A DNA stretch of 64,000 nt from Limimaricola pyoseonensis (GTDB lineage: Bacteria; Pseudomonadota; Alphaproteobacteria; Rhodobacterales; Rhodobacteraceae). The notes beneath the pieces are model-generated. The model searched no databases. It had not been told where the DNA came from and was given only the letters and a program-made list of their open reading frames with translations. Of this stretch, positions 56,093 to 61,324 are shown piece after piece (the first letter of the stretch is position 1; each line of letters starts with the position of its first letter). The position numbers and the translations under genes were made by a program. Where the stretch lies: positions 310,001 to 374,000 of the forward strand of contig NZ_FNAT01000001.1 in assembly GCF_900102015.1 (NCBI RefSeq), read 5' to 3'.

Positions 56093-60417
<4,325 letters not shown>

Positions 60418-60464
60418 ACATTTCCGCAACACCGGAACACGCCGAGACCGCATGAGAACGGAAT

Positions 60465-60479
60465 GTTCTCATTAAGTTC
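60465..60479 (+). promoter_or_regulatory. LexA (SOS) box of alphaproteobacterial type
   Basis: GTTC (60465-60468), seven nucleotides, GTTC (60476-60479) is an exact match to GTTC-N7-GTTC, the LexA operator established for Rhodobacter and other alphaproteobacteria. TGAGAAC at 60453-60459 and 60500-60506 add inverted copies of the GTTCTCA half. A TTTACA -35-like element begins at 60480, so bound LexA would cover the promoter. The next gene is the small membrane peptide at 60545. Confidence 0.7.
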
Positions 60480-60544
60480 TTTACAGGTCCGTTCCCGTGT
60501 GAGAACAAAGTGGCAACTGGAACGCGCAGGGAAGGAGACGCGCC

Positions 60545-60667
60545 ATGGCACGGGAACTGAAACTGGTGATCGACCGCTCGCGCGACACGCTGCTTTCGGA
60601 CGCGCTGGGCGTGGCCTCCCTCGTTGCATTGCTTTTTGTCGGTCTTTGCCTCCCCGGCCTGGTCTGA
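60545..60667 (+). CDS. 40-residue membrane peptide, probably LexA-controlled
   Basis: ATG 60545 follows AAGGAG at 8-nt spacing and opens a 40-codon frame ending at 60667. The product has a charged N-terminal half (MARELKLVIDRSRDTLLSD) and a single membrane helix over about residues 20-39 (ALGVASLVALLFVGLCLPGL), with Cys35. No homologue was recognised. An exact LexA box lies 65 nt upstream and a strong terminator 133 nt downstream, so it forms its own small transcription unit after recG. Small SOS-induced membrane peptides such as Caulobacter SidA inhibit cell division; a similar role is possible but inferred only. Confidence 0.7.
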   Translation: MARELKLVIDRSRDTLLSDALGVASLVALLFVGLCLPGLV

Positions 60668-60799: not shown

Positions 60800-60839
60800 C
60801 GCCGCCGCCACCCCGAGGGGTGCGCGGCGGCGTTTTTTA
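60800..60839 (+). terminator. Strong rho-independent terminator after the SOS peptide gene
   Basis: A 15-bp stem CGCCGCCGCCACCCC / GGGGTG-C-GCGGCGGCG, with one bulged base and a GA loop, is followed by six T. It also lies just beyond the end of the convergent Fe-S scaffold gene. Confidence 0.88.
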
Positions 60840-60850
60840 TCCGGAATGCC

Positions 60851-61324
60851 TCAGCCGCAGGCCGTCTGCGCGCCGCCCTCGGCCTCCTCGACCGCCTGCG
60901 TGACCGCCTCGATCGCCAAGAGGATCGAGGCATGGCGGTTGCGGTATTCGCGCGCCGCCTGCAGCACCTCGAATTCATCGAAGGGCGCGGCGGGGGCGGG
61001 GCCGTTCTCGGCCAGCATCGCGCGCAGCTCGTCGCGCGCCCGCGCCAGTTCGGCATGCGACCGGCCGATCACGTTCTGGCCCACCACCGCGGCCGCGGCT
61101 TGGCCCAGCGCGCAGGCCTTCACGTCCTGACCGTAGCCCGTCACCCGGCCCTCCGACACTGTGACGTCCACCGTCACGGTCGAGCCGCAGAGCGGCGCGC
61201 GGCGGCGCACCGTGGCGTCCGGGGCCTCCAGCCGCTCGGTGAACGGCATCTCGGTCGTCAGCGCGAGGATCCGCTGCGAGTAGAGCTTGATCAGGTCGGT
61301 CTCGCCGCCGGTCGTGTCGGTCAT
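60851..61324 (-). CDS. Iron-sulfur cluster assembly scaffold protein (IscU/NifU-like)
   Basis: The 157-residue product resembles the NifU N-terminal/IscU fold used to build Fe-S clusters: [18 protein letters not shown] at the start, a first cysteine in [12 protein letters not shown], a second in [17 protein letters not shown], and a C-terminal Cys near the end (GGAQTACG). The spacing is not that of canonical IscU, which has an FGCG motif, so it is a divergent scaffold-like protein. It is divergent from hisI. Confidence 0.75.

Follow-up and report, generated by a model that had tools for sequence, protein, structure and literature searches.

A predicted LexA-controlled membrane peptide of Rhodobacteraceae, with likely relatives in phages of the same bacteria, is a candidate inhibitor of late cell division

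Downstream of recG in the window, the whole 64-kb stretch of DNA analysed here, lies a gene for a 40-aa peptide that is preceded by a candidate LexA operator and followed by a terminator and a convergent gene (Table 1). The original prediction for this locus had named a GTTC-N7-GTTC box with two flanking TGAGAAC copies, and an AAGGAG site ahead of the 40-aa ORF. We find the box exactly as claimed and confirm the AAGGAG site and the ORF, with one TGAGAAC copy upstream of the box and the other at 60500-60506.

Table 1. Coordinates of the features at the peptide locus, and of related ORFs in phage records
Feature	Position	Strand	Basis
recG, conserved upstream neighbour	58318-60417	+	Pfam DEAD, Helicase_C and RecG domains
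Extra TGAGAAC half-site	60453-60459	+	Window sequence; absent as a family-wide feature
Candidate LexA operator GTTC-N7-GTTC, GTTCTCATTAAGTTC	60465-60479	+	Exact motif; conserved in relatives
TTTACA, putative -35, abutting the operator	60480-60485	+	TTTAC kept in 65-71/72 loci per position
TGAGAACAAA, inverted half-site (GAAC) over the putative extended -10 region	60500-60509	+	GAACA conserved; function putative
GGCAAC, putative transcription start near A60515	60512-60517	+	Start placed by spacing only; CAAC conserved
AAGGAG ribosome-binding site	60532-60537	+	Window sequence
Predicted 40-aa single-pass membrane peptide gene (candidate SOS peptide)	60545-60667	+	ORF; ATG at 60545, stop ends at 60667
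Conserved Asp19 codon	60599-60601	+	Within the peptide gene
Conserved Gly22 codon	60608-60610	+	Within the peptide gene
Terminator, hairpin and T6	60800-60838	+	Folding
Convergent gene	60851-61324	-	Weak NifU_N match, under the curated cut-off
27-37-aa unannotated ORFs with the peptide core, Roseobacter Autographiviridae phages	L301 2492-2590; L303 from 592; L305 982-1095; L306 799-900; L307 1501-1584; L308 31-114		

The terminator hairpin (60800-60832) begins 132 bases beyond the stop of the peptide gene and consists of 14 pairs followed by six T, with a predicted energy of -31.6 kcal/mol (z -4.1; 0/200 shuffles equally stable). Folding supports the strong terminator that had been ascribed to the peptide gene; the convergent gene may share it. 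At the other end of the locus, the extra TGAGAAC copy and the first half of the operator form a 9-pair inverted repeat (60452-60472) that is not found family-wide.

The bare GTTC-N7-GTTC motif matches the window twice, the second time at 57416 inside ligA, against 1.06 matches expected, and 29/100 shuffles contain at least two. The box is thus unremarkable within the window alone, and the case for an operator rests on conservation. Among 73 loci picked by the peptide only, with the promoter ignored, 72 carry an exact box upstream and the remaining locus has a single mismatch; the distance from box start to start codon is 70-107 bases (median 79). A chance match, which the window statistics by themselves would allow, is ruled out by this conservation, and in close relatives both the peptide and its box are retained.

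When the loci are aligned on the box, the promoter DNA proves very strongly conserved, and this conservation reaches well past the box itself. Most relatives have a third GTTC half-site immediately 5' of the box (its G in 60/72 loci), and TTTAC follows straight after the box. GAACA recurs 23 nt past the box in 63/72 loci, TGAGAACAAA and CAAC stand at a nearly fixed distance, and CAAC is kept in 61-68/72 loci per position. We infer that TTTACA is the -35 element, TGnGAACAA an unusual extended -10 overlapping the inverted half-site, and CAAC the start; a sigma-70 scan found no consensus promoter. A promoter-only scan (box, TTTAC and GAACAA at 17-18 nt) of a genome collection said to cover 84,980 species matched at least 117 stretches, of which 80 were read. 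The peptide is shown by profile in 77 of these, with one more peptide cut by the stretch end, and the end of recG precedes the box in 78, which bears out the predicted linkage to recG. In the two exceptions, one from a Thermolongibacillus and one from an Acidimicrobiaceae MAG, both peptide and recG are missing. No match to the promoter was found in viral contigs.

GTTC-N7-GTTC is reported as the alphaproteobacterial LexA site, and LexA sites have been predicted for recG of some alphaproteobacteria (both in PMC3323433). In the window's genome the motif has 54 matches versus 29 for a reversed control, so that about half of the genome's boxes may be chance. The same box stands ahead of recA, lexA, uvrA and a uvrD-type gene, its centre 40-54 nt before the frames of the uvrD-type helicase, recA and uvrA and its end 38 nt before the lexA match. 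As in the LexA regulon of Rhodobacter-type bacteria, the operator of the peptide gene sits at the promoter and is conserved in relatives, and this comparison strongly supports the LexA control that had been predicted for the gene. Another box in the genome (L093 1201-1215; G000:C11:508356-508370) stands some 64 nt ahead of a gene whose product has an IrrE N-terminal-like (Peptidase_M78) domain, possibly a further LexA target or else a chance box.

A search with the single peptide found relatives in 25/61 genomes, all of them in the same family (25/37, versus 0/24 of the others). A profile (A1) built from 23 distinct peptides detected the peptide in 369/390 genomes and 137/139 genera of an order sample. 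Across the class, 7/385 genomes matched, five in the same family and two outside; we rejected the latter two as spurious, each being a piece of a longer reading frame, one of which is by eye a response regulator. The peptide has no counterpart in Pfam, NCBIfam, PHROGs, PADLOC or PDB, tblastn found no plasmid copies, and we recognised no description of it in the open-access PMC literature; a prior mention is possible. The family is uncatalogued and is carried by most sampled Rhodobacteraceae, the family name used here (some phage records name their hosts Paracoccaceae).

Diverged copies were sought with the motif GTTC-N7-GTTCTTKMC in 32 genomes, comprising that of the window and others in which the peptide searches had no match. 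The motif occurs at 28 places in 25 of these genomes (reversed control, 9 matches in 8 genomes) and once in the window's genome. By eye, a short ORF with a D-x2-G membrane core follows at 20 of these 28 places, among them the one in the window; seven are chance-like or lack an ORF, and one (L104) was outside the reading. Several genomes of one genus carry a form of 31 aa that lacks the charged head, indicating that the head is not essential to what is conserved. Of 13 genomes picked as lacking a peptide match, 11 yielded recG, and by eye a diverged copy follows it in six (one of these, which overlaps the recG stop codon, was read manually). The other five show no visible copy, so the gene can be lost. 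The misses of the peptide searches are partly divergence. At L287 (G327), which is one of the five and belongs to a 2.7-Mb genome, the promoter GTTCTCAATTTGTTCTTTAC is retained after the recG stop without a peptide ORF, which looks like gene loss. At L281 (G352), an unrelated-looking 72-aa ORF occupies the peptide's usual place after recG, and no box is seen.

From 192 loci, many of them chosen by promoter, we obtained 173 copies and 158 distinct peptides of 29-43 aa, of which 109 have 40 aa. The D-x2-G core is nearly invariant (D19 in 157/158 and G22 in 158/158), L34 is kept in 149 and P37 in 150/157, and K6 (121/149), R11 (121/148) and T15 (118/158) are common. All 158 contain a 19-residue window with a mean hydropathy of at least 1.6, none has K/R after that window, and in 156 no charged residue follows the Asp, a pattern that predicts an N-in, C-out topology. 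This comparative evidence strongly supports the original assignment as a membrane peptide. AlphaFold2 returned one helix at residues 2-39 (mean pLDDT 84.9, pTM 0.45), and the product is predicted to be a single helix whose C-terminal half spans the membrane. The periodicity of conservation peaks at 100 degrees but is marginal (permutation p 0.064). Pairwise dN/dS is moderately low (median 0.52, at sites near saturation), falling below 1 in 1695 of 1792 pairs and not in the other 97.

There were also 16 extra matches, spread over 15 genomes, and all ten that we examined hold a short D-x2-G core peptide. We rejected host paralogs as their identity, as the neighbours were phage-type wherever tested among these ten. 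The downstream neighbour is ParB-like in 5/5 tested (phrog_3264 best) and the divergent neighbour has an S24 repressor domain in 5/5 tested, an arrangement consistent with the early region of a transposable phage. In L265, L267, L271, L274, L278 and others, apparent transposable prophages of Rhodobacteraceae, a D-x2-G membrane peptide of 30-80 aa sits between the divergent S24 repressor and the ParB-like gene.

By tblastn against 50,697 phage records, a prophage peptide gave six weak matches (E 1-10) in four distinct phages, all of Rhodobacteraceae. The CRP-403 peptide matched 11 records, again all phages of Rhodobacteraceae and some of them near-duplicates, with three (itself included) at E 6e-4 or better and the others at E 0.1-8. 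The R5C peptide retrieved only its own phage, as two records, and a rearranged control peptide only its own parent; neither a host-type query nor another prophage-type query had a match in phages. Six Autographiviridae CRP phages have an ORF with the core close to one end of their linear records, unannotated in all six (Table 1). In CRP-821 and CRP-811 the peptide ORF opens a rightward cluster of small genes; it lies inside a small-gene cluster in Dinoroseobacter phage R5C, and precedes a ParB-like gene and a 'mobile element protein' in Rhodovulum phage RhkS_P1. In RcapMu, which was examined by name, RcapMu9 sits between the repressors and a ParB-like gene and scores 14.8 bits with the host profile versus at most 6.5 for its neighbours. 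Nine viral contigs have relatives of the peptide. The phage copies are mostly in regions that look early, and the early module of CRP phages is described as serving host takeover and as containing small genes whose function is unknown (PMC11092137). None of the phage and prophage copies examined has a LexA box upstream, so the regulation is not common to host and phage.

A host-only HMM scored 14 phage and prophage peptides at 13.8-40.0 bits. Each peptide was shuffled 300 times in full and 300 times with its pattern kept, and no shuffle reached the score of the peptide it came from; among 4754 background ORFs the top score was 7.1 bits. Seven of the 14 were first found through the host profile and are therefore not independent, while the CRP, R5C and RhkS peptides were reached through phage queries. 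Profile comparison with the host type gave 93.2% for the CRP type and 97.5% for the prophage type, 8/10 rows of the latter having first been found with the host profile. Used as a query, the prophage-type profile matched 70/198 family genomes, and the 30 loci read comprised 23 recG-linked host copies, seven ParB-linked prophage copies (two of them rows of the profile itself) and none that was neither. Its sole match in the window's genome is the window's peptide (E 5.9e-4), and across the class it matched 3/289 genomes, two in the family and one spurious. With similarity above that of shuffles and with host copies retrieved by a phage-type profile, the host and phage peptides are likely to share descent; alternatively, their likeness may reflect convergence on a short membrane core.

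The compound operator, the predicted membrane peptide, the near-invariant helix residues, the wide retention, the phage copies and the absence of SulA (PF03846 in 0/100 family genomes) together suggest an SOS brake on the cell. The phage relatives, the D-x2-G in the helix and the lack of SulA also lend indirect support to the division inhibitor that had been suggested for this locus, although none of these features singles out division or an Fts protein directly. Arguing by analogy, we propose with moderate confidence that the peptide is a membrane inhibitor induced by the SOS response and aimed at a specific target, most probably late cell division. LexA bound to the compound operator over the promoter would keep the gene silent; upon DNA damage LexA would be lost, and the peptide would be made from a short leader and insert into the inner membrane as one helix with a cytoplasmic N-terminus. 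There R11, T15, D19, G22, A/S25, L26, L30, L34 and P37 would face a transmembrane helix in one particular host protein, most likely part of the late septal machinery (FtsW/FtsI/FtsN), and division would be delayed to allow repair. The phages of these hosts, whose copies of the core sit mostly among what look like early genes, would press this brake as they enter the cell.

We propose a late-division target because the SOS membrane peptides of known target described in PMC4211646 and PMC13396833 act on late division. SidA, within the SOS response, and DidA, outside it, are reported to act on FtsW/FtsN (PMC4211646); the YneA helix is reported to bind FtsW TM7, and low-confidence AF3 models also put SosA, ChiZ and SidA on FtsW (PMC13396833). 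Filamentation of a Caulobacter lexA deletion has been attributed to sidA (PMC12700426). YneA, SosA and ChiZ, SOS division inhibitors of Gram-positive bacteria, resemble the peptide as small damage-induced membrane proteins, but YneA and ChiZ carry a LysM domain (PMC13396833) whereas the peptide has no Pfam match. The closest parallel is SidA of the alphaproteobacterium Caulobacter crescentus, also a tiny inner-membrane peptide under LexA (PMC4211646), of which the peptide is plausibly a functional analogue, being by prediction small, single-pass and behind a LexA operator. SidA has 29 aa, whereas the peptide here mostly has 40, is recG-linked and has phage relatives. This comparison is by description only. 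All three class matches outside the family are spurious, and Caulobacter possibly lies outside the 385-genome sample.

Phage proteins provide a second set of parallels, among them T7 Gp0.4, which blocks division. Gp0.4 is reported to act with FtsZ (PMC13423816), and lambda Kil and phiNM1 Gp11 are likewise small phage proteins that block host division (PMC3961180; PMC11237401), Gp11 being an early membrane protein (PMC11237401). A further and more tentative suggestion is that one D-x2-G membrane-helix design is common to a family-wide SOS checkpoint and at least three phage kinds. A single conserved septal docking site would then serve both, with either the phages exploiting the host's own damage brake or the host having domesticated a takeover peptide of phage origin.

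TisB of E. coli is an SOS-controlled single-span membrane peptide. DinQ of E. coli is another and has antisense RNAs (PMC3567139), whereas none was seen for the peptide here, from sequence alone. A dormancy peptide of this kind, depolarising the membrane or altering its energetics without a single protein target, would be tiny, single-pass and under the elaborate LexA-type operator expected of a harmful product, as the peptide appears to be. We nevertheless consider this quite unlikely, as the D-x2-G core and the near-complete lack of charge after the Asp resemble a docking face more than a charged pore peptide, and a TisB-type RNA control is not apparent from the short putative leader (about 30 nt), an mRNA that folds no better than shuffles (z +1.7) and the lack of an Rfam family match at the gene. 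The near-invariant helix residues imply a partner, and an SOS-induced modulator of another membrane protein, such as an FtsH-type protease, secretion, ATP synthase or a signalling kinase like CckA, would also account for them; LexA has been linked to CckA in R. capsulatus (PMC9638019). We regard such a role outside division as unlikely, since there is no pointer to any of these candidates and the SOS membrane peptides of known target described above act on the late divisome.

Small membrane proteins of phages have further roles, superinfection exclusion among them. A peptide that blocks DNA entry, with which phages exclude rivals and which hosts induce on damage, would explain copies in different phage kinds of the same hosts, but we rate it as highly unlikely given the lack of a PADLOC match, the oddity of placing exclusion on a near-universal host copy behind a LexA-type operator, and an early phage position that suits host takeover at least as well. 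The very strong conservation of the promoter DNA could also mean that it serves a non-coding RNA or leader and that the ORF is incidental. This has scarcely any likelihood in our view: length and residues are conserved across the 158 distinct peptides, dN/dS lies below 1 in nearly all pairs, there is neither an Rfam match nor an unusual fold, and related phage peptides exist without this promoter.

We favor an SOS-induced membrane inhibitor of late division. If true, this would provide a candidate SOS division checkpoint for Rhodobacteraceae, where SulA was not found, encoded by a gene without a Pfam or NCBIfam model. The phage relatives would offer a genetic handle on it, as host and phage peptides should hit one target, and would suggest a possible function for ORFs that lack annotation in marine roseophages.
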